In this document: positions 8,662-54,901 of the stretch, piece after piece | How positions within the stretch are numbered: position 1 is the stretch's first letter | Layout of the letters: every line of letters starts with the position of its first letter | Source of the DNA: Cyclobacteriaceae bacterium | GTDB taxonomy: Bacteria; Bacteroidota; Bacteroidia; Cytophagales; Cyclobacteriaceae | Direction of reading: 5' to 3' | DNA length: 64,000 nt | NCBI GenBank assembly: GCA_016787725.1 | Contig: JAEUTZ010000010.1 | Coordinates: 26,740-90,739, forward strand | Notes under the pieces: model-generated | Databases searched by the model: none | Seen by the model: only the letters and a program-made list of their open reading frames with translations | Told to the model about the DNA's origin: nothing | Position numbers and translations under genes: made by a program

Positions 8662-8665
8662 GACC

Positions 8666-10090: not shown

Positions 10091-10150
10091 TCCTTCATGA
10101 ATTTATTCCAAAACCGGCCCGACTTCGTTGCCAGGAGCAACACAAATTAC

Positions 10151-10158
10151 TACATTTG
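10151..10158 (+). promoter_or_regulatory. Bacteroidota -7 box (TACATTTG) of the first TIR gene
   Basis: TACATTTG matches the Bacteroidota -7 consensus TAnnTTTG exactly. A TTG at 10128-10130 lies 20 nt upstream, where the -33 element is expected. The box ends only 5 nt before the ATG at 10164, so the transcript should start at or within a few bases of the start codon. Confidence 0.65.
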
Positions 10159-10163
10159 AAAAT

Positions 10164-12833: not shown

Positions 12834-12862
12834 TCAACCCTTTGGAACTACAAACATTTGAA

Positions 12863-14933: not shown

Positions 14934-17900
14934 TTATTCCTTATAAATTTTCAGCGTTTGTATTCCTGTAGATTGGGTAACTTTGATCAGGTAGAGTCCC
15001 CGCTCGAATTCCGTAAAATCAATTTCCACCACACCGGGTTGCCACCTTGCATGCACCGGGTAGGAGCGCCCGATCCGGTCAACGATCATTAGCTGGGTAG
15101 AAGTGAGTTTCTCAGAAATTCCGGAAATGGTTACCCGATCGGTGACGGGGTTGGGAAAAGCAATTACTTCCAACACATTTTCCGGTTCAATAGGAGCATC
15201 GCTCTGAGTAAGGTAGTATGTTGATTCACCTTCTCGCACGGAAGTACCCGAACGATTCGCTCCCGGCTTGATGGCAATTTGTTGCGCTACCCAGAAGTCT
15301 CGTTTCGTTGCAATTGCGATCTTATTGCCTGTTTCCCCAGCCTCAGCTTGCGTATTAATTGCCATCATATTCGAAGTAAGCCCTTGCTGATGGTTGGGGC
15401 TGTCATAAACTTCCGTATACCCTGCAGGAGGTGTCCAGGTCGCATCGGTTTTATTCGTAAAGAATGCCATCACCAATGCATTGCAATGAGTGGTTGTTAT
15501 TGTGGGTGCAATGGCATTGTAATCCTTATTACCAGTTGCTCCATTGTGAGCGTCAATAGGATTATTTGGGTCGGCACCTGTTACCCTGGAAATACCCATT
15601 GACCATTTCGGGCTATTGGAGAGATTAAAAGTATAAGATCCGGGTTCATTATTTTCCGCGATTTTATAGTAGGTGGCGAGGCCAACCTGATTGCCCTGAT
15701 TATCAGCCCGAATGAAATTCCAGCCGGAAGGCGGAGTAATCTGGGTGCCGGTACCTTTTTCAAAAGTCAATCCAACGATCAACAAATCACCAACTTCCGT
15801 ACCAACAGGCTTAAATACCGTGGGTATACTGGAACCACCGCCCAGAGCTACCTCATGACCGGCAATAATTGCAGGTGTCGGGCAAACAATGGTAATGGTA
15901 GTCGTGCTGAAAGATGGGAAATAATTGCTGTTGCCTGCATAGTTGGCCGTAACTTCATAGTTGCCGATTTCGACAGGAGCTGATCCGCCTGAATAAGTAT
16001 AGGTTACAGAAGGGCTTAACACATCCGTTTCTCCCCCTACACCATAGGCAAAACCGGTAGCCTCTTTGGGATTGCCATCGTAATCAAAGGTTCCGCCTGT
16101 AAGACTTACGGTAGAGTTAGCCTTGGTAATGGTGAACTGTGCCGTGTTGTAAGTAACAACATAATTGTCTAATACGCTGGCCGGATTTAATAGAGCACTA
16201 ATCATGTAGGGTGATCCGATTACATTTTCGCCTGTTGTGCGCGAATACAATGCAACTATACCATCAGATTGCAGAAATCCTGAGAGAGTTCCGGTAAGTG
16301 TCGGATCATCGCTTCCGTAGATTTTAGTTTTATTATTTGGTGTAACGCTGGCCACTCGCTTGCCGATCGTAAAAGTAGCCGTGTTATAGGTAATCGAATA
16401 GTTCGTCAAGGCCCCGACCGGACTTAATGCAGCGCTGATCGTGTACAGACCACCTGCTTGTTCACCTGAAGTTCTTGAATAGGTTGCAGTTATTCCATCA
16501 GCTTCCAGGAAGCCTGTGAGAATACCTTGCAGAGCTACATCAGCATCTCCATACGTCTTGCCAGCAGGATTTGGAGTTACGGAAGCTACTTTGGTATTTA
16601 CGGAAAGTCCACCCTGGGTTCCGGTTTCAATCCGGTAGTTCGAGGGTGTTATCAGATTCACCGTAGGAACAACGTGATAAGATCCAACCGGGATTAACCC
16701 TGTGCTTTCAAAGGTCGCTTCCGCTTTTAAGAGTGAATAGTCGATCGATTGAACTACGTTGGCGGCAGTTTCCGCCACGGTCACCTTCGCTGGATTCCCC
16801 GTTTCAAAGAATTCCGTAGTGTAGGCAAATCCTTCGAAAGTGGAAGTGTACTCCGGAGTTGGATCGCCATAGATGATTTCATTCGGAGTAGCGGCCGTAG
16901 ACACCGTTAAAGCGGCCGGAGTAATTTCCAGCGTACCGGCTTCATATGAAACAATAAAGTTGTTCGATAAAAATGTACCCGGAACAATGATATGCGGAGC
17001 TCCTGGTCCGGTAACATGGGTTCCACTTACCAGATTGATGGAGTAAAACTCAAGAATATAATCCTCTTCATTGTCGATATCTGCCCCGAAATCGTAATAC
17101 TCTGTGCCGTTCGATTCCACTTCTTCAGCCGGTTCTAAATCCTTCTCCCCAAAGAGAATTAACATATTATCCAATTCAGGGGCATCGGCTTCCGGGCCTT
17201 CTGTACCATTGATTAGGGTGCGACCATTGATGAGCGTGCGACCATTGATTAACGTACGACCATTGATTAATGTGCGACCGTTAATCAGAGTACGACCATT
17301 GATCAGGGTTCGACCGTTGATCAGGGTCCGGCCGTTAATCAGGGTTCTGCCGTTCAACTCCGGATTAACCAGAGTCTGGTTCAATTCATCGGTTGGTGTG
17401 GCTTTATAATTTTCAAAAGAACTCATGGGCACATCGAATACCGAGTTGATCAGGGTTCTCCCGTTAATCAAGGTACGACCATTGATGAGGGTACGACCAT
17501 TAATCAAAGTCCGGCCACTGACCATGAAACTCAGGTTGTCTGCATCTGAATTAATCAGCGTTCTGCCGTTAAACTGTTGTGTGTCGAAGATGGCCAATGG
17601 CAGGGCATCATCACTGGCGGATTTGGCGCGTTCCAGGTCCTGACGGTAGGCATTTTCAATGGCCGCCTTCAATCCAGGAACATCTGTAATTTCAGATTCA
17701 TCTGCTTCTTCAAAGTTGATTTCATAATCGAGTGCATCACTGATGGATTGACCGTATTCCAATTGTAAATTGACGGGCTTGAGGGTGATTGGCAAAGCCT
17801 CCACCGTAACGGAACCAGCCCCATAGGGGCCATACGTATTATCAATACCATTGTATACCAGGGTTCCATTCGATTGGATAACGCCAACATAATCATAGAG

Positions 17901-20900
17901 TTCGCGGAAAATAATATTGGTTTCCGAATGAACCGGGATGATATCGTAATCACCAACCGGTGCAAGGTCGCCACCGGAAGTAGTAATGGAACTTGCGAAC
18001 GCAAGAGGAACTAACGGTCCGGTTGCAGATCCCAGGGTTAATCCAACTTGCTCCAGGGTTAAACTAGCGGGTTGCCAGGTTTGATTGCCGGATTCATCAT
18101 CAGCTAATGTTAATACGGTTGCACCATAGGGGAGTGCTGCTTGACCATACTTTTTAGTTATATCATTTGCCTGGATCGCCACAATTTGCTTTGGAATATT
18201 AAGGATCGGAACAGATTCCGAGTCACCACCGTCCCCGGCATTGGTCATGGCAATATTTTTTACCTGGACAGGGGGATTTCCTTCAAACGGGGGAATGGTT
18301 ACTTCGAGGTTGGTGGTTTCTTCATTGTAGAATACATCCTCCTCGTTCAATTCATTTCCACGGAGGAATACTTTTGAGTCGTAATAAAAGTTTGTCCCCT
18401 CAATAATCAATGTGAATTCTTCAACACCAACATTGGCGCCATCCGGAAGCAACAGCCGGGTTATTTTTGGTTTGGGTGTGGCGAGGGTAAGCAAGGCCGC
18501 ATCGCCACGCACCAATCCGTAGCCGGAATTGATATCAAAACCTTCACCATGTAAATCCTGCGCGGTGGTTTGCATCACCTTCCGAATGTCATCCGGAGAA
18601 CTTCCGATAAATTCTGTATCCCAACTGGCACCATCTTTATGAGTAGGGGCTGTACCCGCGTAATATTTTGTACGGGCTTGCATAATCAAAGCTGCCAATC
18701 CAGCAGCATGTGGAGCCGCGGCCGATGTACCAAAGAAATTGAACTTACCATCACCTTCGATGTCCGTACCATTCAGAAACACCGAAGTGTTTACTCCATT
18801 GGGAGCAACAAAGTCGGGTTTGGTTCTGATTTCAGAATCGGTTTCAGTGCCACCACGGGAGGAAAATGTTGCCACCGTGTTGGGTTCCGTGTTTGCCGGT
18901 ACCGGAGTATAGTTAAACGTTGAGGTATTGCTATACAAAATAGCACCCACCGTCATGGCTCCGGTAGCGTTGGCTTGTCCAACGATGGTGGAGCTCCCAG
19001 TAAAGTACTCATTCACCACCAGCTTGTCGCCACGGAAAATCACATACTTGAAATTGATATCGGAACTGCCATGGGCCCTCACGATCATGATATCGGTATG
19101 GATGGTGGTATTGGCCGGAACTGAAAAGGATAGAATTTCGATTGGATCACCACCGGTATTATTCCGGTTGAATCCAAAGAGTTCCGCCCCCTGAAAGTTC
19201 ACCAGGTAGATGTCGAGATCATTGGCTGAGCCGGACAGAATTTCACCGAACGAACCGATCGAGTACACAGGATCATCCCATTGTAATACAATCGTATACG
19301 TGGTGGGTTCTGCACCAGGGCCAAGGGTTATGTTCTGGAGGATGTCTCCACTTCCAAAGTTATGGGCTTGCTGACCGGGTAAATTTGCAGGGGCATTTAG
19401 AGGACTAAAATCAGAAGTGTACGATTTGCTGCCAAAGTTTCCGGCTGCAGTGAAATACGAAACTCCATCTTCACTTACATCATTAACGGCCTTTGCAATT
19501 CGACCATCGGTATAAAAAGGCTCGGTGATATAAGTAATGTCATCGACAATGATATCGCAGTCATTTTCAGGTAGCTTCAAGTCCCGGATTCCCTTGGCAA
19601 AGTCCCCAGCAGTAATAAAACCGGTCCGGAAATATAACTCGGCCCCAGGGGCGACATCATGAATAATTTGCAGCATCGCGCGGCCTTCATCCGTTCCCTG
19701 GCCGTAGCGGGAGGGGAGATCCTTAACCAGGTTGACTTCATTCAAATAACCAGAGGGATTTAACGCCCCGGGCAAATCTCCATCCTTAATATCCAGCGTG
19801 GCCGGGTTGTTGGGCAATGTATTATAACTGTCTGATAACACACCAATCTTTATACCGGTACCATCCAGGTCATATCCTAACCGAACCAGATTCGATCGCA
19901 TGACTTCATCACCTTGTGAGGCAATGGCACTTCGCACCGGAGGAATAGCGGGCCGTACATAATTGATGTATTCATCATAGGTATTCAGCACATCCAGATT
20001 TTCAACGGGAACAAATCCGGTAATTATCAACGAGCCTGCCAATTCGCTAATGTCATCATCAGTTTCAAAACCAAGCGTATTCAAGATTGCTTGCAGGTCT
20101 GAAAGTTGAGCGCTTGTTAATTCGGAGAGTACAATTATTTCTACCAGAACCCTGTTGTCGCTAATGAAGAATAATTCGTTGGTATTAACTGCCCCGCCTT
20201 GCTGTACGATCGTGTAGAGCATGGTCAATTCGGATCCGATCAGATCATTTACTTTACCAGCCAGGGGTGCACAAACCCCGAATTGCTGGCGCGCGTTCAC
20301 GGTAATTGTAAAGGTGGTGGTACTGGTGCATCCGGAGGCACTGACTGCGGTAACCGTGATTTGATCGCCATGTTCGGCAGTAAAGGATGAAGGTAATTGA
20401 ACCTCACCCTGTTGCCGACTCGTGAACGAAAGGGTATTGCCTTCAGCGGAAGCATAGAGCGTTAAATCAATAAGAGTGGTATTTCCGCCAAGCTCCGTGC
20501 TGCAAACTTCTTCATTGTTGATCGAAATAACCGGAGTTGGATTTACTGTCACGGTAACATCATCTGTAGCAGGGCATCCGTTGGTCCCTACTACAGTAAC
20601 TGAATAGGTAGTGGTAGTTATTGGGGCAACAGAAATTGATTCGGTTGTTTCTCCGGTACTCCAGGAGTAAGTATAGGGACCCGTACCAGCTGAAACTACT
20701 GCTGTGAGTGTGGCTCCACTTACTTCGGCACAAACATTCACATCCGCGCCAGCGCTAACCGTAGGCGGTGTCGTGTTCAGATTCACCAAGACAACATCGG
20801 TTGCGCTGCAAGCTCCTGAGGCGACCGTCAGTGTATATGTTCCTGCGGCATTAACGGTAGGGGTTGCGGTATTCGCACCCGATACAATGCTTCCTCCGTT

Positions 20901-22103
20901 GCTGGCTACCCAGCTATAGGTTACCCCAGGCGTGGTGGACGAACCATTGAGCTGTATTGTGGTGGCTACACAACTAATCGTCTTATCGGCCCCCGCATTT
21001 GCATTTGGTGTTGTGCAAGTTTGAAAAGGAGCAAAGACTACAGTAACACCACTTTGAATATTAACCTGCGTGCCACTCCAAAGGGCACCGGTGATGTCTG
21101 AACTTCCGGTTCCAGAGCCAACGTTAATAGCGGCATAAGGTGCCCATACTGTACCCAACCATTTTGATTTAGAACCGGTAGACCCATTGGCAATATCGAA
21201 TGCATATTTTGTACTACCCAGGCCAGTTCCATGTACTTCAGTAAAAATGCGATTGGCGCTACCGCCATTGATCAAGTTTACACTCAGCTTTCCAAGCCTG
21301 ACATTGTCATGAACATAAAGCTGAATGGTGCCGGTTGGATTATTTTCGAAGTCGAAGACGAAGGTATTGTTGTTCTTATTATCAATCAGGTGCAGTACAT
21401 AGACACCGGTACCTTTAAATGTGAGGGTTTGGTTGCCCGAAAGTTTAATGTCATCATACGCCCCCGGAGTAATGGTGCGGGTAGTGGTAATATCCGCCAT
21501 TTGTGGATAGGCAGGAAATGAAGTTATAGGCGGGAGCGTAGGAAATTGAGGGAGCGTTGGTGTTCCGGTAATTCTACCTCCACTGGGGACAGGTCCTGAA
21601 TATGTGGTTCCTGCAGGATGGGTGATGGTGCCTGTCACGCTTCCACCACCAATTACAATTCTTCCGTTAACATCAATATTTCCATTCATAGTGGCATTAG
21701 ACCCAACGGAAAGAATAGTTCCAGAAACTGCAGGGGTGTTCGAAGCCGCAATAGTACCAACCACACTATTGCTGTTGGCCAGAACGATCGTTCCCTTACT
21801 AAAGATGTTACTACTGAAAGAAGCCGTGCCTGTAGTTTTAACAAGTTTTAAACTGCCCACAGACCCTCCCGTAATCTGAGAGGAACTTCCGATCTGCACA
21901 GCATATCCCGGTGAGCTGCAAGAAGCTGTTCCAGGTCCTCCCGCACCTGAAAACAGAACAAAATCAGACATCTGAAGCTGCTGCCCTGGTTGAGACCGGA
22001 CTATACCCGGCAGGACGGAAAGCATAAAGATGAATGCTAAAACCTGCCTATTGTGAAGCGTACGGCCTAAACCACCTGAAGCTTCAACGCTAATTTTTTC
22101 CAT
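14934..22103 (-). CDS. Giant T9SS-exported multidomain subtilase/adhesin with NGRTLI hexapeptide repeats
   Basis: 2389 residues. After a signal peptide (AFIFMLSVLPGIVRS): a beta-helical choice-of-anchor/ice-binding-like domain (about 45-362), PKD/SprB-like repeats (366-620), and an S8-like peptidase domain (about 740-1165; Asp in IGVLSDSYN, AAGNFGS, FFGTSAAAPH with the nucleophile Ser near 1125). Then come an IPT/TIG domain (about 1208-1295), MBG-like repeats, 13 NGRTLI units (residues 1512-1631), more MBG-like domains (about 1720-1990), a globular domain (about 2070-2290) and a T9SS type A sorting domain (about 2304-2389, AFPNPVTDRVTISG, ending TLKIYKE). The usual HGT histidine motif of subtilases is replaced by DEGRAM. 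It is exported across the outer membrane and anchored or released. Likely a surface protease or adhesin; substrate unknown. Confidence 0.88.
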   Translation of the reverse strand: MEKISVEASGGLGRTLHNRQVLAFIFMLSVLPGIVRSQPGQQLQMSDFVLFSGAGGPGTASCSSPGYAVQIGSSSQITGGSVGSLKLVKTTGTASFSSNIFSKGTIVLANSNSVVGTIAASNTPAVSGTILSVGSNATMNGNIDVNGRIVIGGGSVTGTITHPAGTTYSGPVPSGGRITGTPTLPQFPTLPPITSFPAYPQMADITTTRTITPGAYDDIKLSGNQTLTFKGTGVYVLHLIDNKNNNTFVFDFENNPTGTIQLYVHDNVRLGKLSVNLINGGSANRIFTEVHGTGLGSTKYAFDIANGSTGSKSKWLGTVWAPYAAINVGSGTGSSDITGALWSGTQVNIQSGVTVVFAPFQTCTTPNANAGADKTISCVATTIQLNGSSTTPGVTYSWVASNGGSIVSGANTATPTVNAAGTYTLTVASGACSATDVVLVNLNTTPPTVSAGADVNVCAEVSGATLTAVVSAGTGPYTYSWSTGETTESISVAPITTTTYSVTVVGTNGCPATDDVTVTVNPTPVISINNEEVCSTELGGNTTLIDLTLYASAEGNTLSFTSRQQGEVQLPSSFTAEHGDQITVTAVSASGCTSTTTFTITVNARQQFGVCAPLAGKVNDLIGSELTMLYTIVQQGGAVNTNELFFISDNRVLVEIIVLSELTSAQLSDLQAILNTLGFETDDDISELAGSLIITGFVPVENLDVLNTYDEYINYVRPAIPPVRSAIASQGDEVMRSNLVRLGYDLDGTGIKIGVLSDSYNTLPNNPATLDIKDGDLPGALNPSGYLNEVNLVKDLPSRYGQGTDEGRAMLQIIHDVAPGAELYFRTGFITAGDFAKGIRDLKLPENDCDIIVDDITYITEPFYTDGRIAKAVNDVSEDGVSYFTAAGNFGSKSYTSDFSPLNAPANLPGQQAHNFGSGDILQNITLGPGAEPTTYTIVLQWDDPVYSIGSFGEILSGSANDLDIYLVNFQGAELFGFNRNNTGGDPIEILSFSVPANTTIHTDIMIVRAHGSSDINFKYVIFRGDKLVVNEYFTGSSTIVGQANATGAMTVGAILYSNTSTFNYTPVPANTEPNTVATFSSRGGTETDSEIRTKPDFVAPNGVNTSVFLNGTDIEGDGKFNFFGTSAAAPHAAGLAALIMQARTKYYAGTAPTHKDGASWDTEFIGSSPDDIRKVMQTTAQDLHGEGFDINSGYGLVRGDAALLTLATPKPKITRLLLPDGANVGVEEFTLIIEGTNFYYDSKVFLRGNELNEEDVFYNEETTNLEVTIPPFEGNPPVQVKNIAMTNAGDGGDSESVPILNIPKQIVAIQANDITKKYGQAALPYGATVLTLADDESGNQTWQPASLTLEQVGLTLGSATGPLVPLAFASSITTSGGDLAPVGDYDIIPVHSETNIIFRELYDYVGVIQSNGTLVYNGIDNTYGPYGAGSVTVEALPITLKPVNLQLEYGQSISDALDYEINFEEADESEITDVPGLKAAIENAYRQDLERAKSASDDALPLAIFDTQQFNGRTLINSDADNLSFMVSGRTLINGRTLINGRTLINGRTLINSVFDVPMSSFENYKATPTDELNQTLVNPELNGRTLINGRTLINGRTLINGRTLINGRTLINGRTLINGRTLINGRTLINGTEGPEADAPELDNMLILFGEKDLEPAEEVESNGTEYYDFGADIDNEEDYILEFYSINLVSGTHVTGPGAPHIIVPGTFLSNNFIVSYEAGTLEITPAALTVSTAATPNEIIYGDPTPEYTSTFEGFAYTTEFFETGNPAKVTVAETAANVVQSIDYSLLKAEATFESTGLIPVGSYHVVPTVNLITPSNYRIETGTQGGLSVNTKVASVTPNPAGKTYGDADVALQGILTGFLEADGITATYSRTSGEQAGGLYTISAALSPVGALTNYSITYNTATFTIGKRVASVTPNNKTKIYGSDDPTLTGTLSGFLQSDGIVALYSRTTGENVIGSPYMISALLNPASVLDNYVVTYNTAQFTITKANSTVSLTGGTFDYDGNPKEATGFAYGVGGETDVLSPSVTYTYSGGSAPVEIGNYEVTANYAGNSNYFPSFSTTTITIVCPTPAIIAGHEVALGGGSSIPTVFKPVGTEVGDLLIVGLTFEKGTGTQITPPSGWNFIRADNQGNQVGLATYYKIAENNEPGSYTFNLSNSPKWSMGISRVTGADPNNPIDAHNGATGNKDYNAIAPTITTTHCNALVMAFFTNKTDATWTPPAGYTEVYDSPNHQQGLTSNMMAINTQAEAGETGNKIAIATKRDFWVAQQIAIKPGANRSGTSVREGESTYYLTQSDAPIEPENVLEVIAFPNPVTDRVTISGISEKLTSTQLMIVDRIGRSYPVHARWQPGVVEIDFTEFERGLYLIKVTQSTGIQTLKIYKE
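17211..17354 (-). repeat. Eight tandem 18-bp units encoding NGRTLI
   Basis: Eight perfect hexapeptide units (8 x 18 bp, in frame) encode residues 1584-1631 of the giant protein. The units differ at synonymous positions (Arg as CGC, CGT, CGG, AGA), so the peptide is conserved more than the DNA. Confidence 0.97.
17448..17519 (-). repeat. Four tandem 18-bp units encoding (N/S)GRTLI
   Basis: A second block of the same repeat encodes residues 1529-1552; the first unit in protein order is SGRTLI. A single isolated unit lies at 17553-17570 (residues 1512-1517). A spacer of about 31 residues separates this block from the eight-unit block. Confidence 0.97.
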
Positions 22104-22367: not shown

Positions 22368-22931
22368 TCACAACATGATAAATAGTAGGAAAATCAACAC
22401 GCTGAAGCTAAATCCAAACATAAAGACTTGGTAGGCATAGCTTAATAATCGGTATTTACGCGTTAGGATGAGCCCCTGGTTGTAGATGTCGATGGTCATG
22501 TTTTCATGAATGTCGGTCCGGGATTGCAAGAGTATGTTCATTTTCTCCAGGTACTCCTTTTGACTAAAACGGGCGATCACTCCAAAGAAAAGCAAGCTTG
22601 ATTTTTCCTCTTTGTCTGGAATCCGCGAAGCGGAAATGACCTTGGGACGGGCCGCCTGAATGGCGAACATAGCCGAGATCAGGCACGAGAGCACGATCAA
22701 TGCGATGGGAACGATGATGTTGGATTTGTAAAGATCCAATTGATTGGCGACTGCTCCATAGCCGGTAATGGCAATGATGGAGGAAATGATCATGGCATTG
22801 ATGCTAATGACGATGTTTGCCTTGTTATCGGCAATTTGGATCAGGTTGTTTTGATTCCGGTACGTTACCCGGAAGAGCGTTTCGGTTTCCCGTCCACTTT
22901 TCTTTTTCTTGGGTGGCTTTTCAGGTTCCAT
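22368..22931 (-). CDS. PycTM-like (DUF5706, Pycsar effector family) membrane protein
   Basis: 187 residues from the ATG at 22931; a TTG at 22961 would give 10 more. A basic N-terminus leads to the family motif IADNKANIVISINA, then two membrane helices (about 45-62 and 72-95). A soluble part contains ARPKV, LLFFG and IYNQGLILTRKYRLLSYAY, followed by a final membrane helix. This is the pattern of the PycTM/DUF5706 family, membrane effectors of the cyclic-pyrimidine Pycsar defence. I recall Bacteroidota members often having an N-terminal HD domain; here it is absent. No cyclase is adjacent, so its partner is unclear. Divergent from the CotH-like gene at 23033. Confidence 0.8.
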   Translation of the reverse strand: MEPEKPPKKKKSGRETETLFRVTYRNQNNLIQIADNKANIVISINAMIISSIIAITGYGAVANQLDLYKSNIIVPIALIVLSCLISAMFAIQAARPKVISASRIPDKEEKSSLLFFGVIARFSQKEYLEKMNILLQSRTDIHENMTIDIYNQGLILTRKYRLLSYAYQVFMFGFSFSVLIFLLFIML

Positions 22932-23032
22932 GCAAGGTTGAATATTTTCGAATGTACTCAAATAATTGGTAGAGCGGATGGACGCTAAATATTCTGAAGG
23001 GTTTTAGTATCTTTAAGTAGCTCCATTCCAAA

Positions 23033-24109
23033 ATGCCACGCTCGCACACAGCATCGATCAATCAGTTTATCTTGCTCCTCGTTTTTGCAGGAATTCAATC
23101 CTACACTTGCCGGGCCCAAAAACTTTTTGAAAGAGATTCCCCTCTCAAAATTCAATTGAGCGGACAAGTCGAGGTGCTGTTGCAAGATCGGGGCGAGGAT
23201 ACCCAATATCATGAGATCCAACTTACCTATACCGATTCCAGTGTAAGCAACCAACCGGTCTCGATTCCCATACAAGTCCGGGTACGCGGGAATTTCAGGC
23301 GCTTAAAAAGTAATTGTGATTTTCCGCCACTCTTGTTGAATTTTTCCGGCACGACAACCAAAGGAACGCTGTTCGAAAGTCAGAATAAGGTCAAGTTGGT
23401 GATGCCTTGTCAGGGCGATAAATATGTAGTCCGTGAGTATTTGACCTATCAGCTCTACAACCGGCTTACCCCAAAGAGTTTTAAAGCGCGATTAGTATCT
23501 GTTGAATTACAAGATCCAAACCTGAAACCAAAGCGGGCTGCATTCTTTTATGGTATCTTATTGGAAGAAGAGGAGCAAGTAGCGGAGCGAAATGGCATGA
23601 TCATGCTTGAACGACAATTGGTGCGTCCGGAACAAACCCAAAAGGAAGACTTTCTGACCATGGCTGTTTTTGAATACCTGATCGGGAACACGGATTGGTC
23701 GGTGCAGTATCGCCAAAATGTGAAGCTGATCGCAAAAGATACATTGTCCATTCCCATTACGGTACCCTACGATTTTGACCATGCCGGCATCGTTTCTGCA
23801 CCCTACGCGCTGCCGGCCTTCGAGCTGGGATTGAATTCAACCCGGGAAAGAAGATACCGGGGATATTGTATTCAGGATATGAAACAATTTGAACCTGTTG
23901 TCGCTAAATTTAATGAGGCCCGGGACGATTTTTATCGGATTTATTCCGAATGTCCTTACCTGGAATTAGGATATGTAAAGACCACGTTAAAGTATTTGGA
24001 CGACTTCTATAAAACGATTAACGATCCGAAACGGATAAAATACCAATTTCAATACCCTTGCGATCCAAGCGGAACAGGTAATGTGGTGATCAAAGGGTTG
24101 AAGCAGTAG
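23033..24109 (+). CDS. Secreted CotH-like (kinase-fold) protein, first copy
   Basis: 358 residues with a signal peptide ending near CRAQ. The body shows scattered hallmarks of CotH-like spore-coat-kinase-fold proteins: VRVRGNFRR, a helix with YVVREYLTYQLYN, FFYGILLEEEEQVAERN, FEYLIGNTDWSV and VPYDFDHAG. The last matches the PWDYDD metal-binding segment in the second CotH-like protein of this window. CotH proteins phosphorylate secreted proteins; activity here is not shown. It ends 36 bp before the second TIR gene, in the same orientation. Confidence 0.7.
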   Translation: MPRSHTASINQFILLLVFAGIQSYTCRAQKLFERDSPLKIQLSGQVEVLLQDRGEDTQYHEIQLTYTDSSVSNQPVSIPIQVRVRGNFRRLKSNCDFPPLLLNFSGTTTKGTLFESQNKVKLVMPCQGDKYVVREYLTYQLYNRLTPKSFKARLVSVELQDPNLKPKRAAFFYGILLEEEEQVAERNGMIMLERQLVRPEQTQKEDFLTMAVFEYLIGNTDWSVQYRQNVKLIAKDTLSIPITVPYDFDHAGIVSAPYALPAFELGLNSTRERRYRGYCIQDMKQFEPVVAKFNEARDDFYRIYSECPYLELGYVKTTLKYLDDFYKTINDPKRIKYQFQYPCDPSGTGNVVIKGLKQ

Positions 24110-24134: not shown

Positions 24135-24142
24135 TAACTTTG
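24135..24142 (+). promoter_or_regulatory. Bacteroidota -7 box (TAACTTTG) of the second TIR gene
   Basis: TAACTTTG is an exact TAnnTTTG match and ends 3 nt before the ATG at 24146. I do not see a good -33 element at the right spacing. The placement matches that at the other two TIR genes. Confidence 0.5.
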
Positions 24143-24145
24143 ATT

Positions 24146-26734
24146 ATGCCCTCCTTGTTGCCAGGATACGAATACGACATTTTCATATCGTACCGCCACA
24201 ACGACAATCGATCCGGGTGGGTAACTGATTTTGTTAACCACCTAAAAGAGGAGTTAGCGGCCACCATCAAGGAGCCTGTCTCGGTGTATTATGATTCCAA
24301 TCCGCATGACGGTCTGTTGGAGATTCATCATGTAGATAAAAGCCTGGAGGGTAAATTGCGATGCTTCATTTTCATTCCCATCATTTCCCACACGTACTGC
24401 GATACCAAGAGCTTTGCCTGGAACAATGAGTTTCTAGCTTTTTGCAAATTGGCGAAGCAAGATGCCCTGGGGCTCCATGTGAAATTACCGAATCGCAATG
24501 TTACCAGCCGAATTCTACCGGTTCAGATTCACGACCTTGATCCGAGTGATCAATTACTTTTTGAGCGAGAAGCGGAAAGTCCATTGCGCGCAATCGAATT
24601 TATATTCCGTTCACCCGGGGTGAACCGACCCTTGACGCCTCAGGATACCCGACTGGATAATACAAATCGAACTTTTTACCGCGATCAAATCAATAAGATC
24701 GCGAATGCGATTAATCACCTATTCCTGGCCGTGAACCAGCAACCGAAAGCTGAAATTAAAGTGGAGTTACAGCAAACCTTAGATTCAGATCCGAAACCAG
24801 AAGGAATCTCGTGGTTATGGAGTGAAGTGAGGCGGAGAAATGTTGGGCGGGCTGCGCTTACCTATACCATTGTGGCATTGGTGCTCCATCAGTTTCTAAT
24901 ATTTATAGCGCCATTCATTAAGTTGGAGTCCCGGTTTGTTGAGTTGGTTGCCTGGATGTTGCTAGGTGGATTTCCGCTCGCCACCTTGTTTGCTTGGTTT
25001 TATGAGGTCAGTCCACATGGTTTGATCCGCACAAATTCTCCTCAAGCCACCGAAAATCCATTTCCGCCAGAACGAAAAAAACCATTTACTGGAAGGCCTC
25101 TCATTCTGCTTTTAATAATCGTCATGATCAGTCAGTTTGTTTATCTCAATTATTTGAAGGACACGGGTATTATTCCAACGGTGGATGAGGAGGGAAACAG
25201 AGTAATTTCAATCGCGGTTATACCGTTTGAGAATCGGGGTGGAGATCAATATTTCGCAGCAGGAATCACAGAAGATATAATCAATCGATTAATTATTATC
25301 AAACAATTTCGGGTCACCAATAAAAGGCGTACTCAGGAATTTGCCGGAAGTCTTCTTCCCATTGAAGATATTGCCAAACGTTTAAATGTCGCGTTGATCC
25401 TGACGGGGAGCATCGCACAGCAGGGTGATAAAATTGCAGTGCGCGCCCAACTCATTGATCAGGATGACACGTACCTGTGGGGGAATACGTTTCAGCATAC
25501 TTCACAGGACATTATGGCCGTTCAGTCGGAGATTGCGCAACGGATTGCTGATCAATTGAAGATCCAACTCAGTGAGAGTGAGAAACGTCAATTACACAAG
25601 AAAGCAACCACAAATCCTACCGCGTATGATTTATACTTGCGTGGTCGCAGTTTGTACTATGAATATCAAAGCAAGTCGAATGATTCTGCGGTGGTACTTT
25701 TTAAACAAGCCATTGATCTTGATCCTAATTATGCCCGGGCCTGGGCAGGGTTGAGTGATGCTTATGCCCAGCGGTATGGTCGGTTTGTGCAAGCGTATTT
25801 TTGGACGGATTCAAGTTTAGTGGCTGGAAAGCGTGCTATTGAGTTAGATTCAAATCTTTCCGAGGCGTACAAGGCCTTAGCCACCGCGTATGATTACCGT
25901 GAGGACTATGAAAGTGGTCATCCATTATTGTTAAAGGCGGTGGCATTGGATCCAACGGATGATCGGGCAGTTGGAAATTTGGGTACGAATTATTTACTCC
26001 GGGGGGATTTACCCACCGCCTTACGGTGGCAAAAGAAGTCGGCCGGGCTGAATCCCACTAATTGGATTCCGTACCAATTAATTGGTTGGATCTATCGATT
26101 ACTGGGCGATTTGGAGAATGCGGAAGCATGGTTTAAGAAATCCCTGGCTGCAGATAAAGGATCCACCCGATACGATACCTATGAACTTTTAGCGTATACG
26201 CTGGTATCGCTTGACCGGAATCAGGAAGCGTTGGATCTGATACCGAAGGTACTTGAAATCGGGAATGATACGCGTGTGTTTGAAACAGCGGGCCTGATTG
26301 CACACTTTGCCGGAGACCGGGTAAATGCCAAGAAGTATTTTCAACAAGCTATTGAAACCAACACTATGTATCGGGAGGACCATTACACAGCCAGTCCGAT
26401 CGGCTTGGGTCAGCTCTTGCTCGAAGAAGGCGATCGGGTAGAAGCAGAGGTCTACTTAAACCATGCCCTGGAAAATAATTTATTTGAGGTAAACAATGGT
26501 TCAAAAAGCTTTGAACCTCCATTTTACCTGGCGGCCATCTATGCAATTAAAGGCAATCGTACTAAATCATTGGAATGGTTGCACCGGGCTATTGAGATGC
26601 ATTGGGTTGATTATGCTAAATTTTATTATGGACCTTACTTTCGACTGTACAAAAGTGATCCCGAGTTTTTATCACTCATCAACAAAGTGAAAGAAAATGT
26701 CCAATCCATGCGGAAATCTATATCAGAGAATTAA
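24146..26734 (+). CDS. TIR - three-helix membrane - FlgO/TolB-like - TPR protein
   Basis: 862 residues; the ATG at 24146 (MPSLLPGYEYDIF) is preferred to a TTG six bases upstream. The TIR domain spans residues 5-200 (YDIFISYRHND; VYYDSNPHDG; FAWNNEF). Residues about 220-290 carry the SEVRRRNVGR two-helix module that often precedes FlgO/TolB-TPR parts in cyclase-like proteins, ending FYEVSPHGLIR. A third membrane helix lies at 315-335. The FlgO/TolB-like domain is at about 353-480 (SIAVIPFENRG, AAGITEDI), and TPRs fill the rest. It lacks the HD domain of the first paralogue. Inner-membrane protein with an N-terminal cytoplasmic TIR domain, an NADase by family inference. Confidence 0.85.
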   Translation: MPSLLPGYEYDIFISYRHNDNRSGWVTDFVNHLKEELAATIKEPVSVYYDSNPHDGLLEIHHVDKSLEGKLRCFIFIPIISHTYCDTKSFAWNNEFLAFCKLAKQDALGLHVKLPNRNVTSRILPVQIHDLDPSDQLLFEREAESPLRAIEFIFRSPGVNRPLTPQDTRLDNTNRTFYRDQINKIANAINHLFLAVNQQPKAEIKVELQQTLDSDPKPEGISWLWSEVRRRNVGRAALTYTIVALVLHQFLIFIAPFIKLESRFVELVAWMLLGGFPLATLFAWFYEVSPHGLIRTNSPQATENPFPPERKKPFTGRPLILLLIIVMISQFVYLNYLKDTGIIPTVDEEGNRVISIAVIPFENRGGDQYFAAGITEDIINRLIIIKQFRVTNKRRTQEFAGSLLPIEDIAKRLNVALILTGSIAQQGDKIAVRAQLIDQDDTYLWGNTFQHTSQDIMAVQSEIAQRIADQLKIQLSESEKRQLHKKATTNPTAYDLYLRGRSLYYEYQSKSNDSAVVLFKQAIDLDPNYARAWAGLSDAYAQRYGRFVQAYFWTDSSLVAGKRAIELDSNLSEAYKALATAYDYREDYESGHPLLLKAVALDPTDDRAVGNLGTNYLLRGDLPTALRWQKKSAGLNPTNWIPYQLIGWIYRLLGDLENAEAWFKKSLAADKGSTRYDTYELLAYTLVSLDRNQEALDLIPKVLEIGNDTRVFETAGLIAHFAGDRVNAKKYFQQAIETNTMYREDHYTASPIGLGQLLLEEGDRVEAEVYLNHALENNLFEVNNGSKSFEPPFYLAAIYAIKGNRTKSLEWLHRAIEMHWVDYAKFYYGPYFRLYKSDPEFLSLINKVKENVQSMRKSISEN

Positions 26735-49681: not shown

Positions 49682-50764
49682 TCACAAGTGCACTACATTG
49701 CCTGTCCGTACCGATTCATCGCAGGCAAATGCAATGCGCAAACTGTTTACGGCATCTTGCATATGATCAGAGAGATCCAGATTCTCCCGAATGGCTTTTA
49801 AGAAATACCGTTGCTCCCGGTTACACAATTCCTGATGATCAGGCTCATCCTGCAGATTGATCCACTCATCTTTCTTCGTGAAATTATTTTTTTCATCAAT
49901 ATCCGCATGATGAAAGCGTAAGGATTCTGTTTTAGTGTGTGCTTCTACGGAATCGGACTTACCACTCGCTCCGGCATCTTTTGCCACAATGGAGACGCAA
50001 CCTTTAGGACCGATTACATCCTTAACAAAGAAAGCTGTTTCACTGATCATGGGTCCCCAGCCCGCTTCGTACCAACCTACCGAACCATCTGCAAACTTGA
50101 TTTGAAGCTGACCATAATTGTAATTACCAGCCGGAATATCTTCGGTTAACCGGGCACCAATAGCACTTACCTGCAGGGGCTTGCTGCGCGTCATCTGACA
50201 CATCACATCAATGTAATGCACGCCACAATCCACAATGGGGCTCAGGCTCTTCATCAGGTTGCGGTGCACATCCCACATAATGCCATGGCTTTGCTGGTTC
50301 AGGTTCATGCGCATGACCAGGGGCTTTCCCAGTTTGCCAGCCAATTCAATAAATTTTTCCCAGCTGGGGTGGTGCCGGAGGATATACCCGACTACCAGTT
50401 TCTTTTTGGCTTTTATCGCAGCGGCCACTACGCGCTCGGCACCTGCAACGGTATCCGCCACGGGCTTTTCAATAAACACATGACAACCGTGTTGAAAGGC
50501 CTGAATGGCGAAGGATTCATGAGTATCCGGATAGGTAGAAATGCACACGGCATCCGGCTTGGTTTTTTCGAGGGCTTCGGTGTAGTCTGAAAACACCGCA
50601 TACCCACCACCCAGTTTTGCATTCAGCGTGTCTTTGCTCTTGCCGGTGGATACTAACCCACAAATCTGAAACCCACCCACCGTGTGATAGGCCGTAGCAT
50701 GTGAGGCCCCCATGTTGCCACACCCCACTACCAATACCCGAATTGAATTTAGGTCCGAAGCCAT
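49682..50764 (-). CDS. Gfo/Idh/MocA oxidoreductase, cytoplasmic
   Basis: 360 residues without a signal. The Rossmann motif is VLVVGCGNMGASHA, the catalytic segment is HVFIEKPVADTVAG, and DCGVHYIDVM carries the conserved His. A C-terminal dimerisation domain follows. The family oxidises or isomerises sugars and polyols with NAD(P). A -7 box candidate (TATTTTTG) lies at 50803-50796 on the minus strand. Last gene of the minus-strand run from 60.4 kb. Confidence 0.9.
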   Translation of the reverse strand: MASDLNSIRVLVVGCGNMGASHATAYHTVGGFQICGLVSTGKSKDTLNAKLGGGYAVFSDYTEALEKTKPDAVCISTYPDTHESFAIQAFQHGCHVFIEKPVADTVAGAERVVAAAIKAKKKLVVGYILRHHPSWEKFIELAGKLGKPLVMRMNLNQQSHGIMWDVHRNLMKSLSPIVDCGVHYIDVMCQMTRSKPLQVSAIGARLTEDIPAGNYNYGQLQIKFADGSVGWYEAGWGPMISETAFFVKDVIGPKGCVSIVAKDAGASGKSDSVEAHTKTESLRFHHADIDEKNNFTKKDEWINLQDEPDHQELCNREQRYFLKAIRENLDLSDHMQDAVNSLRIAFACDESVRTGNVVHL

Positions 50765-50815: not shown

Positions 50816-51979
50816 CTACTCCAGTGCTTTGAGCAACACAATTCGTTGGTTGTGCAGAAAGTTTGCTGCCACGCGAAGATCTTCTTTCGCCTGCTCCAAT
50901 ACAAAGGGATGTTTATCCAGAAACCGGGAGGCAGCATTCATGGTGGGATCATTTGAAATCGACTCCAATTCGTGTAACACCTGATCGAAGGTGCGTTGTA
51001 ACAATTCCGGATCACGGTCTAACAATACCTGTTTGAAATCCACTCGGTAGCGTGTGTAAAGTACATCGTCTGAGGCTATTTTACGGTCAAGGTCATCTTC
51101 GAGGGAAAATACCAGCCGGTCTTTAAGCTGTGCCTGACGAACGTGCGCACCCTCATGCGGTTCGCGCCTGAAGAGATCGTCATAATCCCAGGGGATGATT
51201 TCAAATTTGCCGGAATCCGGGTGCACATAAAAGTAAACTTCATCGGAGTAATCTCCATTCATTACGAAGTAGTTGAAGGCCAGCCAACGGAAATAACTGG
51301 TTAAGTTCAATCGATCCTGCAGGTATAAGAACAATTCCTGATGCTGATACCGATGGAGGTTCTTGTATAGACTCATGTATTGTTCTTTAAATGGCCGGAC
51401 TTCTACTTTCGAACTCGAGTGCAGATATTCCTGATCAATCTTAAGTTCGGCTCCGCGTCTTATCATGTATGGACTTTTCATGGTAGCCGTGTAATGGTTT
51501 GGTTTTTCCACCAACAGGTAAATGCCCTGCGGTTGATCGTTAATCCAAAGTTTGCAGTAGGTATTGAACAAAGGAAAAAGTCCCAATTCTGCCAGATTCA
51601 TAAAGGCCCATCGGTTGTGCCAGAGATTTTTATCCATCACCAGGTTTAGCAAATCAAATTTTTTGATTTTTATGGATCCGGTGGACGAAGTAATGGTTAC
51701 GGCTTTATCCAGATCCACCGATAAAGACTTCCGTACAAAAGTTAGGGTAGTACGTCCACGGGAATGCATTTCTTTGAGGACAACGGTGTCTTGATTCAGC
51801 AGCAGGAGCGCCTGACTGAGGTCAATTTTATTTCCATCCTGACTTTGAAGGTTACGCAATCGATCTTTCGAAAGATAAATTCGGAATTCAGGAAAAGTGG
51901 GATTGGGGTCATCCGATTGGCCGTAACTTATTATTGCAATAAGCAATGAAACGAATGTCGGTATGCCATATTGCCGCAT
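50816..51979 (-). CDS. Secreted CotH-like (kinase-fold) protein, second copy
   Basis: 387 residues from the ATG at 51979; the TTG six bases upstream is less likely. A signal peptide ends near ISYGQSD. CotH-type motifs: SRGRTTLTFVRKS, DQPQGIYLLVEKP, the helix RWLAFNYFVMNGDYSD, and FEIIPWDYDDLFR with the Asp pair of the metal site. It lies 11 bp downstream of the third TIR gene in the same direction, while the first CotH-like gene lies upstream of the second TIR gene. Protein-kinase activity is inferred from the family only. Confidence 0.8.
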   Translation of the reverse strand: MRQYGIPTFVSLLIAIISYGQSDDPNPTFPEFRIYLSKDRLRNLQSQDGNKIDLSQALLLLNQDTVVLKEMHSRGRTTLTFVRKSLSVDLDKAVTITSSTGSIKIKKFDLLNLVMDKNLWHNRWAFMNLAELGLFPLFNTYCKLWINDQPQGIYLLVEKPNHYTATMKSPYMIRRGAELKIDQEYLHSSSKVEVRPFKEQYMSLYKNLHRYQHQELFLYLQDRLNLTSYFRWLAFNYFVMNGDYSDEVYFYVHPDSGKFEIIPWDYDDLFRREPHEGAHVRQAQLKDRLVFSLEDDLDRKIASDDVLYTRYRVDFKQVLLDRDPELLQRTFDQVLHELESISNDPTMNAASRFLDKHPFVLEQAKEDLRVAANFLHNQRIVLLKALE

Positions 51980-51990
51980 CCGCAATGAAG

Positions 51991-54075
51991 TTAATAATTG
52001 ATCAACGACCGGATACGTTGTTTAATCATCCCTAATGCAGGATCATCCTTTGGTAATAGAAACATGTACTTATGATTTTGCAGCAACGTAGTCAGCACTG
52101 GATCTCTTACTTCAATGGCCTGGTTGGCGTAGTGTAAGAAATTTTTCAGATCTCCGGCAATTCCGTAATTCCCGGCTACAATGGCCGGGGACAAATAGTC
52201 CTCCCGGGCCTGTACAATTTCAATGAATTTAATAACATCAGCACGCAGGAGCGCATTCGAGCCCTGATAGAACTGAACCAATTCTTCGTGTGAGGCGGCC
52301 TTTGCAATTTCAAGGGCTTTTTCTATGCTGCCCAGATTCCAGTACACAACAGAATGTTGATACGGATCATTTTGAAATAGGGAATCAATGTTGAGTTGAC
52401 CCTTATTCAACTCAAGCAACGCATACTTTTTATTCCCCGTTAAGTACCGGAACGTAGGATTAAAAACCAATCCGGCATCCAGTATTTCGATGGCTTCTTT
52501 GGGCTTGCCAACGATTATCAACAAACTCCCCAGCCAATTGTAGGCATTGTCCTGATTGGGATTTAAGGCAATGGCTTTTCGGTAAAGTTTTTCCGCTTCC
52601 CGAAAGTTGAAATTGTTGAAGTGCCAGTAGCCTAAGGAAGCTTGTATTTCGGCAGCCTGGGGTTCCAGTTGCAAGGCCTTGTCGATGCTCTCCTTTGCCA
52701 AGGGCATATAGAGTTGCGGATTGCCCCAACCGCGGCCTACAATCAATAAATAGGAGTCGGCAAGACCTGCATAAGCGAGAACAAAAGTGGAATCGAAGGC
52801 AAGGGCCTCATTAAACAAGGTAACGGCCTGATCAAGTCCTTCCTTGGTTCGTTTTTCCATTTCATATTTTCCTTTCAGATACCGGTCGTACGCGTCCTTG
52901 CTTTGGGTAGGAATGTTCCGGATGCCTGCATCCACTTCCGGTGCAATATCAATCTTCAAACGCTTGACAATTTCCAACGCAATTTTTGTTTGCACATCCA
53001 GAACGTCATTGACTTCTTCCTCAAACGTTTCCACCCATAAATGTTTGTCCGAATCAACGTCAATAAGTTCGGCTGTAATCCGAACCCGGTTCCCCGACCT
53101 TCGAACACTTCCTTCCAGGATGCTGGTCACATTTAGTTCATCGGCAATCTTTCTGAGATTTAAGACTTGCCCTTTGTAAGCTTTCACCGAACTTCGGCTG
53201 ATGACCCGCAGGTTCTTGATCTTTGAGATGTTGCTGATAATTTCTTCCGTGATCCCATCCACAAAATATTCCTGGCCCGGATCACCACTCATGTTGTCGA
53301 AATACAAAACGGCAATAGATTTATCGTCACTAGCAGAGGACGAAGAGGTAAACCATTTCGGAATAAAATAAAGCCCGGCAACAACCAACAACAGCAGTAA
53401 GGTGGCAACTAATCTTGTCATGGTTTTGGACCGAGTGGGGGGTGACCAGGTGGGTTCCCGTTTTGTCGGACTATCCGGATGTTTGATGCCAATTAATATT
53501 TCCTTTACTGCATTGGCCACTTTATTTACCTGATCCCTGTAGAACGTCTTGTTGAGGTTATCATTTGGATGATCTTCCACGGCCCGTAAGGGCCGGTTTA
53601 CACCGGGTGATTTAAAGATGAAGTCGATGCATCGGAGCGGGCCTCCTATCTCTTTCTCAACCAACGCCCTGTCGTCTGCTTCTACGTCATGGATTTTAAT
53701 GGGTAAAATACGGCTGGCTACATTGCCATTCCGCAGTTTAATTTCACGACCCAGTGAATCTGCCATGGCAAGCTTTTTAAAAGCGAGGAATTCATGCTGC
53801 CAGGCATAAGATTTGGGGTCGCAATAGGTTTGCGATAGTATGGGGATAAAGATCAGACACTTTAGCTTTTGCTCCAGGCTTTGATTCACCTGATGGTTTT
53901 CCAGAAGCCCATCCTGCGGGTTGGAGTCAAAGTAAACAGTTACTGGGTCCTTGATGGTGGCAGCCAATTCCTGATTCAGGGACTTAACAAATTTGGTGAC
54001 CCACCCGCTTTGATTATCGTTTTGACGATAAGAGATAAAGATGTCGTATTCGAAGCCAGGTACCTGGGCAGGCAT
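51991..54075 (-). CDS. TIR - single transmembrane - FlgO/TolB-like - TPR protein
   Basis: 694 residues (MPAQVPGFEYDIF). The TIR domain spans 5-200 (YDIFISYRQNDNQ; VYFDSNPQDG; YAWQHEF). One transmembrane helix follows at about 220-242 (LVATLLLLLVVAGLYFI). The FlgO/TolB-like domain is at about 252-390 (SIAVLYFDNMSGDPGQ, YFVDGITEEI, VISRSSV), and TPRs fill about 400-690. It has one membrane segment where the second paralogue has three and the first has none, and no HD domain. NADase activity is an inference. Co-transcribed with the second CotH-like gene. Confidence 0.85.
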   Translation of the reverse strand: MPAQVPGFEYDIFISYRQNDNQSGWVTKFVKSLNQELAATIKDPVTVYFDSNPQDGLLENHQVNQSLEQKLKCLIFIPILSQTYCDPKSYAWQHEFLAFKKLAMADSLGREIKLRNGNVASRILPIKIHDVEADDRALVEKEIGGPLRCIDFIFKSPGVNRPLRAVEDHPNDNLNKTFYRDQVNKVANAVKEILIGIKHPDSPTKREPTWSPPTRSKTMTRLVATLLLLLVVAGLYFIPKWFTSSSSASDDKSIAVLYFDNMSGDPGQEYFVDGITEEIISNISKIKNLRVISRSSVKAYKGQVLNLRKIADELNVTSILEGSVRRSGNRVRITAELIDVDSDKHLWVETFEEEVNDVLDVQTKIALEIVKRLKIDIAPEVDAGIRNIPTQSKDAYDRYLKGKYEMEKRTKEGLDQAVTLFNEALAFDSTFVLAYAGLADSYLLIVGRGWGNPQLYMPLAKESIDKALQLEPQAAEIQASLGYWHFNNFNFREAEKLYRKAIALNPNQDNAYNWLGSLLIIVGKPKEAIEILDAGLVFNPTFRYLTGNKKYALLELNKGQLNIDSLFQNDPYQHSVVYWNLGSIEKALEIAKAASHEELVQFYQGSNALLRADVIKFIEIVQAREDYLSPAIVAGNYGIAGDLKNFLHYANQAIEVRDPVLTTLLQNHKYMFLLPKDDPALGMIKQRIRSLINY

Positions 54076-54118: not shown

Positions 54119-54781
54119 TCAATTGATATTCAACCCGAAGATTATTCCAAACCACGGTGTACCCTGGTAAATCCAAATAGCTTTGTCTCGGTCGGTCAGG
54201 TAATCCCAGCCAATCGCAAGACCACTGGTAATACGCCCCAGTCCCACCATGGTGGCAAAGCCATGCGTTACGATCAATCCATGATACTCATCCATCATTT
54301 GATAGTTGGTCGACCAGGGTGTCACAGCCGTAGCGCCTAGCCCACCGAAGGCTCCGAATGTAATACCGTGATAAACAGAGTTCTTAACAAACCCAATGGG
54401 GGTTTTTGAATAATGTACCTGGTATCGATCAATCCGGTACCCTAAATAAAGGTGCCCATTGAATTCGTAGTTGAGTTGACGGGGCAGATTTTCCTGAGCG
54501 TTCCGGTATTTGAAAATGGCGGTAGTCAGGTCCACATCAAATCCTGTGTTTTGAAATACTTCATCCCGGGTAGGGATAATTGATATTTTTTCATCCTCAA
54601 ATTCGGGATAAATATGTACGGTATCCTCGCTGGTTTCTACAAACACCGGTTTAAACTTAGACCCTTCTTGTTTGAATTTGTAATACCCGGTGCCCAATTC
54701 ATATTTAGGAGGATGCCGCAACGAACCACAGGCTTGTTGAAGCAACGCCATTCCAAGAATCCAATAGTGGATAGTCTTCAT
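54119..54781 (-). CDS. Lipoprotein of unknown function
   Basis: 220 residues from the ATG at 54781, which gives a lipobox (LLQQACGS); a TTG upstream would add 8. The C-terminal half contains hydrophobic glycine-rich segments (GITFGAFGGLGATAV, HGFATMVGLGRITSG) that may be a small beta-barrel or membrane-associated part. No known domain. It sits between the frameshifted membrane protein and the third TIR gene. Confidence 0.7.
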   Translation of the reverse strand: MKTIHYWILGMALLQQACGSLRHPPKYELGTGYYKFKQEGSKFKPVFVETSEDTVHIYPEFEDEKISIIPTRDEVFQNTGFDVDLTTAIFKYRNAQENLPRQLNYEFNGHLYLGYRIDRYQVHYSKTPIGFVKNSVYHGITFGAFGGLGATAVTPWSTNYQMMDEYHGLIVTHGFATMVGLGRITSGLAIGWDYLTDRDKAIWIYQGTPWFGIIFGLNIN

Positions 54782-54901
54782 TACATCGTTTAAACTGTAA
54801 TTCAATACGACTATTCATACTAAGATAGCGGCCTCCCCTGAGTATTACAATCAAATCGGGAGTGGATTTTGAAACGACTAGTCGGTTAGTAGGATCCTGA
54901 A

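Follow-up and report, generated by a model that had tools for sequence, protein, structure and literature searches.

Two TIR–CotH-like gene pairs of a Cyclobacteriaceae bacterium as probable separate juxtapositions in a TIR-rich chromosomal region

In a 64,000-nucleotide stretch of DNA from a Cyclobacteriaceae bacterium (GCA_016787725.1, contig JAEUTZ010000010.1, positions 26,740-90,739 of the forward strand; the window), two genes encoding proteins with a TIR head and a FlgO/TolB-like and TPR tail each lie beside a gene for a CotH-like protein, with the pair at 50,816-54,075 being the main region of interest. A first-pass annotation had read this recurrence as a conserved two-component module of an intracellular TIR signalling protein and an exported kinase-fold protein. 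Comparison with related genomes indicates that the two pairs are probably separate juxtapositions in a chromosomal region of the Cyclobacteriaceae that is rich in TIR genes and often reshuffled, and not copies of one module. In several genomes, TIR genes are found together on one contig, the same stretch also carries CotH-fold genes, and each family is met there without the other as well. The most likely account is a region rich in TIR genes in which CotH genes also reside, with one three-gene block found in two genera and one juxtaposition private to this genome (4.2 Mb in 27 contigs; G000 among our genome labels).

The window contains three TIR genes, two of which adjoin a CotH-like gene, as had been annotated; the fourth TIR gene of the genome is on a different contig. 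In pair 1, the CotH-like gene (cotA) precedes the TIR gene on the same strand with a gap of 36 bp, counted from the ATG at 24146. In pair 2, the TIR gene precedes the CotH-like gene (cotB) with a gap of 11 bp, counted from the ATG at 51979. Neither BLASTP nor profile comparison gave a significant match between the two CotH-like proteins, in agreement with the distant relationship first proposed, and both proteins carry the hydrophobic, signal-peptide-like N-terminus expected of secreted proteins in a simple hydropathy test. Membrane and signal segments were assigned throughout from a hydropathy window, not from a trained predictor. The paired genes and the third TIR gene are as follows.

23033-24109, plus strand: P0003 (cotA), exported CotH-fold protein of 358 amino acids (PF08757 at 18.2 bits, under the gathering score of 23.8; AlphaFold and Foldseek)
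24140-26734, plus strand: P0001, TIR–three transmembrane (TM) segments–FlgO/TolB–TPR protein of 864 amino acids (open reading frame; TolB_N at 21.2 bits, cut-off 22.4; TPR above cut-off; three hydrophobic segments)
51991-54075, minus strand: P0002, TIR–one TM segment–FlgO/TolB-like–TPR protein of 694 amino acids (open reading frame; TPR Pfam matches; TIR-domain model; hydrophobic segment at residues 220-238)
50816-51985, minus strand: P0004 (cotB), exported CotH-fold protein of 389 amino acids (PF08757 at 96.5 bits, above the gathering score of 23.8; hydrophobic N-terminus)
10128-12833, plus strand: third TIR gene, TIR–FlgO–TPR–HD protein of 901 amino acids, no membrane segment found (domain and hydropathy scans)

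The TIR head was detected in 24 of 63 genomes of the same genus (85 places), in 10 of 17 genomes of a second genus (26 places) and in 13 of 391 genomes sampled across the order, 8 of these 13 being from the same two genera. For neighbour analysis, stretches were fetched around the 111 TIR places of the 34 TIR-bearing genomes of the two genera; the counts cover these two genera and not the seven TIR places of G298, G334, G361, G442 and G405, which belong to three other genera. Genes were called by a longest-open-reading-frame procedure, which gave 110 TIR genes with 192 neighbour slots. Relative to the 111 places, the caller missed two TIR genes (one on contig C135 of G019 and one of G039) and added one short fragment; because the contigs concerned hold no CotH place, the adjacencies counted below still stand. 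It also missed cotB on contig C20 of G023, which carries no TIR gene, and cotA of locus L237.

Seven of the 110 called TIR genes adjoin a CotH-fold gene: two each in G000 and G030, and one each in G038 (a TIR fragment), G138 and G335. A genome background calculated from rounded genome sizes and the 94 CotH-fold genes of the 34 genomes, with overlaps removed, predicts 0.18 such adjacencies (P = 9e-10), and significance is retained (P = 3.5e-5) when related cotA–TIR pairs are collapsed to four events. Pure chance on the scale of whole genomes was rejected on this comparison. Shuffling of genes within the 11 segments that contain both families gave an expectation of 3.2 adjacencies (P = 0.028), and a second shuffle over all TIR-bearing segments gave 3.28 (P = 0.0375); the segments are centred on TIR and CotH genes, and the counts are uncorrected for relatedness. 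About half of the adjacencies are therefore to be expected, because both families already share a stretch. The proposal that the linkage recurs, for which the scoring of CotH-like neighbours against random expectation had been suggested as a check, was thus upheld only in part: across the 34 genomes, CotH-like genes are far more frequent beside TIR genes than the genome background predicts, so that they cannot be called no more frequent there than elsewhere, but they exceed the within-segment expectation weakly. A gene pair that recurs within one window can arise from two families that share a region, and within-region shuffling is the control to use for such pairs.

The sharing of a region is evident from the placement of the genes. 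All six TIR genes of G020 lie on a single contig of 122.6 kb, the eight of G335 all fall inside some 64 kb on a 0.8-Mb contig, and in 9 of the 26 genomes with at least two TIR places all such places are on one contig. On contigs longer than 3 Mb that carry both, a TIR gene and the nearest cotA are separated by 20 bp (G138), about 4.5 kb (G384) or about 13 kb (G446); the distance is 9-9.6 kb in G020, G027 and G023. The single contig of G456 carries a TIR gene and no cotA.

The gene order at each pair was then compared across genomes with reference to the following neighbours.

49682-50764, minus strand: GFO/IDH/MocA oxidoreductase, the anchor of the pair-2 locus in relatives (Pfam)
54119-54805, minus strand: protein of 228 amino acids with no Pfam family and an N-terminus that appears lipoprotein-like by eye (open reading frame), 43 bp upstream of the P0002 gene
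26746-28077, minus strand: S8 subtilase with I9 prodomain (S8 at 91.8 bits; I9 at 21.0 bits, cut-off 21.2), convergent with the three-TM TIR gene at 11 bp
22368-22961, minus strand: PycTM, a Pycsar-type membrane effector (PF18967 at 90.5 bits; PADLOC PycTM), divergent from cotA

The oxidoreductase beyond cotB has counterparts of 89-90% identity in G020 and G050, which lie on the TIR side there too. The order oxidoreductase–cotB–TIR of G000 corresponds to oxidoreductase–TIR–TIR in G020 and to oxidoreductase–M28 peptidase–TIR–TIR in G050; no CotH gene was present at the matching locus in the fetched stretches of these two relatives, the only ones in which the locus turned up. Nor was the order TIR-then-cotB found in any of the other 33 TIR-bearing genomes. 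A conserved operon was rejected for pair 2, as CotH is missing at the locus in both relatives and the order is private to its own genome. On contig C93 of G030, a member of the same CotH family lies before a TIR gene, in the reverse order, and the TIR protein has no membrane segment. Within the window, the 228-residue gene, the TIR gene and cotB may share one transcript.

Pair 1 is a real small synteny block present in two genera, the parts of which separate freely. Among the 12 fetched loci of the long cotA type, a TIR gene lies directly downstream in four (G000, G030, G138 and G335), and in G038 a TIR fragment lies upstream of cotA. The order cotA–TIR–subtilase, with a subtilase of our family c13, is seen in G000, G030 and G138, and in G335 an extra TIR gene stands between the TIR gene and the subtilase. 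The three-TM TIR gene and subtilase occur without cotA in G020, G040 and G023, with other genes upstream, and cotA is found as c34–cotA–c22–c23, with neither TIR gene nor subtilase, in G020 and G034. The subtilase is the steadier neighbour: each of the seven called c13 members touches a TIR gene, giving eight contacts where 1.29 are expected by shuffle (0 of 2000 shuffles as high), a count taken from TIR-centred segments, with any copies elsewhere lying outside it. Nine three-TM TIR genes have a further gene beyond them: in seven cases this is a c13 subtilase, in G038 a truncated subtilase and in G007 a different gene.

The subtilase of pair 1 contains an in-frame tandem hexapeptide, QGRPIH repeated three times, between its I9 prodomain and S8 domain. 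A second subtilase gene in the window (14934-22103, minus strand, 2389 amino acids) contains in-frame tandem copies of GRTLIN, four in one array and eight in another, and hexapeptide repeats with other letters (QGQPIQ, NGKALY and SRALVN) occur in relatives.

The neighbours of cotA were also examined in GTDB genomes, where 504 relatives were found and the best 80 retained. No adjacent TIR gene of this family was present at 76 of these 80 loci; the four with one are all in genomes already counted (G030, G038, G335 and G138), as some of the best 80 loci belong to genomes already sampled and the counts therefore overlap. A cotA gene stands at one end of the called genes at L172, L174, L208 and L241. 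Commoner neighbours are a large TPR/kinase/cyclase cluster, a second cotA, DUF4956, PycTM and a purple-acid-phosphatase-like protein. An obligate partnership of cotA with TIR genes was rejected, since most cotA loci have no adjacent TIR gene and other neighbours are commoner.

For the TIR proteins, no Pfam TIR model matched any of the three window proteins at E 0.1. Their identity as TIR proteins rests on matches of the modelled head to TIR structures, together with a TIR_2 match of 26.5 bits (cut-off 28) in the homologue L120. The best of five AlphaFold models of the head had a predicted local distance difference test score (pLDDT) of 77.3, and was the only one to exceed 70 (range 77 to 40; alignment of eight sequences); its top Foldseek matches were TIR domains, with E values from 2.3e-4. 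W92 and E95 are present in all 102 aligned TIR domains, and this W..E motif presumably corresponds to the region of the catalytic glutamate of TIR NADases. The heads are well conserved, those of P0001 and P0002 being 61% identical. Comparison of P0002 with five relatives gave identities of 63-70% for the head, 21-43% for the FlgO part and 16-22% for the TPR part. In the three-TM branch, the tails of eight other proteins from both genera are 40-65% identical to that of P0001, and that of the G058 protein, which is cut by a contig end, is 27% identical. The three-TM proteins of G138 and G335 (L263 and L254) have heads of 97% and tails of 75% identity, and this difference is a hint of head recombination or conversion.

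Hydropathy places the membrane segments directly after the TIR head, with one in P0002, three in P0001 and none in the HD-bearing third TIR protein. With a cytosolic head and an odd number of TM segments, the FlgO/TPR tails of P0001 and P0002 would lie outside the cytosol, a placement helped by the weak similarity of the tails to the C-terminal regions of TolB, FlgO, CadC and HilA. The description of the TIR partner as intracellular is accordingly doubtful for these two proteins. Among the TIR proteins adjacent to CotH-fold genes, three have three membrane segments, one has one, two have none and one is a fragment.

Assignment of the CotH-like proteins is straightforward for P0004, for which the family profile (A2) also matches Bacillus cereus CotH (5jd9) with E 2.2e-9. 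For P0003, the Pfam score is sub-threshold, and 6 of 14 members of the cotA family match PF08757 at E ≤ 0.1 (best 1.5e-6). An AlphaFold model (pLDDT 92.6, from a 56-sequence alignment) returned both CotH kinase entries as its top Foldseek matches; against the B. cereus CotH kinase 5jda, E was 7.4e-10 and the TM-score 0.48, at 13% identity. N219, D221, D247 and D249 are invariant in 56 of 56 aligned relatives. On this model, P0003 is predicted to have the CotH kinase fold.

A conserved module, in which an exported CotH-fold kinase would modify or sense something outside the cell and trigger the TIR protein, would account for the excess of adjacencies over the genome background, but it is not supported. 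Order is not fixed, CotH is absent from the matching pair-2 locus in G020 and G050, an adjacent TIR gene is missing at most cotA loci, the order of pair 1 is seen at 4 of the 12 fetched loci of the long cotA type, and about half of the adjacencies are expected by shuffle. The CotH-adjacent TIR proteins share no topology, and since two of the complete ones have no TM segment, an exported partner could not touch these directly. Several observations nevertheless weigh against a shared region as the whole explanation. Both shuffle P values are below 0.05, so that an attraction beyond the region is possible; all seven pairs are on the same strand with gaps of 5-147 bp, which has a probability of 0.06 given 67% same-strand neighbours; two CotH subfamilies with no detectable mutual similarity are involved, and cotB adjoins a TIR gene both in G000 and in G030; and, of the six complete TIR proteins encoded beside CotH-fold genes, four have an odd number of TM segments, in line with a contact model. 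The order cotA–TIR–subtilase spans two genera at about 46% identity of the TIR tails. Nor is TIR clustering general: the other 17 of the 26 genomes, whose assemblies are often fragmented, have their TIR places on more than one contig, and separate long contigs carry TIR genes in both G007 and G023. Co-occurrence is also skewed, with cotA found in 12 of 15 TIR-bearing and 2 of 21 other genomes (36 of the 63 genus genomes, searched with P0003; the 24 TIR-bearing ones were searched with the A1 profile) and cotB in 8 of 24 TIR-bearing and 1 of 35 others (59 genomes), both uncorrected for ancestry; this pattern fits a shared region as well as it fits a module. A residual module signal may remain beside the reading of a shared region, and we consider a conserved module as first proposed to be quite unlikely.

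It is similarly improbable that only the block of pair 1 is a functional unit, with the three-TM TIR receptor, the exported CotH kinase and the subtilase carrying out envelope surveillance and the protease or its peptides loading the TPR tail. The conservation of the three-TM tails in both genera is what such a unit predicts, as are the TIR contacts of all seven c13 subtilases, the truncated subtilase beside the three-TM TIR gene of G038, and the blocks of G000, G030, G138 and, with its extra TIR gene, G335. However, other upstream genes take the place of cotA at the TIR–c13 pair of G020, G040 and G023, the three-TM TIR gene of G007 has no subtilase, and the three-TM tail of G058 is divergent. 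The subtilase is, moreover, convergent and not co-directional, and its copies were counted only in segments surrounding TIR and CotH genes. That the pairs are simply unrelated neighbours brought together by chance is very unlikely given the genome-wide excess, also with four events; the idea survives only for pair 2 alone inside the region, where the absence of TIR-then-cotB from every other examined genome speaks for it. Two separate juxtapositions in a TIR-rich region remain the preferred reading.

How these proteins might act can be outlined from their domains. The TIR head, with its conserved fold and invariant W..E, would supply an enzymatic or signalling output that stays constant, with NAD+ as the probable target, and the diverging FlgO/TPR tail would act as a variable sensor, placed outside the cytosol in the one-TM and three-TM forms. 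The CotH-fold proteins would be exported kinase-like enzymes with extracytoplasmic substrates of their own, and neighbouring genes on one strand may be co-transcribed where the gaps are short. A more far-reaching and unlikely picture is a chromosomal repertoire, in some Cyclobacteriaceae, of TIR receptors with near-constant heads and diverging FlgO/TPR tails, in which the three-TM branch, together with the hexapeptide subtilase and CotH kinase, would survey the envelope, and released peptides or phosphorylated targets reaching the TPR tail would switch on the cytosolic TIR head. If these proteins do act together, they would constitute a bacterial TIR receptor that watches the cell envelope. 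The remaining interest lies in the TIR family, whose heads stay constant while the sensor tails, often membrane-anchored, diverge, and in the subtilase beside the three-TM branch.

Parts of known systems can be recognized in these proteins. The window TIR proteins resemble the NADase and signalling TIR domains of AbTir, RUN1 and RPP1 in predicted fold and W..E motif, but their tail is of the FlgO/TolB–TPR type, often behind one or three TM segments, in place of an NLR, Argonaute or ThsA partner. cotA and cotB have fold, conserved acidic positions and export in common with the CotH secretory kinases (PF08757; B. cereus 5jd9 and 5jda), whereas cotA is only 13% identical to the B. cereus protein, the Bacteroidota members are not spore-coat proteins and kinase activity is putative. 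The C-terminal part of the NCBIfam models for HilA/EilA and CadC is matched by both P0001 and P0002 at scores far under the cut-offs, and the two proteins would differ from TM–TolB/TPR sensors of the CadC/HilA type in having TIR as cytosolic output in place of a DNA-binding domain. Elements of the Pycsar and nSTAND systems are also represented, by PycTM and a TPR-cyclase with PycC matches (best 1.3e-15) in the window and by a TIR-DUF4062 protein preceding an nSTAND1 protein in relatives. PADLOC assignment of the four paired proteins was rejected, two having no match at E 0.01 and two being marginal (E 0.0016 and 0.0083). In the open-licence literature, no paper was found that pairs CotH with a TIR domain, TIR with FlgO and TPR, or CotH with Pycsar, and CotH does not appear in the main text of PMC7159879; the view that the TIR–CotH pairing is undescribed extends no further than these searches.

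Further associations were noted around these families. TIR proteins of about 530 amino acids (L084, L103, L118, L120, L126 and L129; DUF4062 in L120, the one tested) are followed at ≤40 bp by proteins of about 1350 amino acids of our family c2, with nSTAND1 in the one tested, L103. The HD-branch TIR gene of the window is flanked by a phosphoesterase and the TPR-cyclase, and forms with them and a TPR-S protein a block (6961-14821) that is kept in G020, G027 and G034 and is partial in G030 and G022, with contig ends cutting G034 and others. The TPR-cyclase (12863-14821) and PycTM are separated by the gene for the 2389-residue subtilase. Three proteins recur as a group at L146, L177, L179, L199 and L206: a DUF4956-type membrane protein (Pfam on L146), one with the CotH fold and one resembling purple acid phosphatase. 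Finally, cotA adjoins genes of the PycTM cluster also at L147, L160, L172, L175, L180, L182 and L187.

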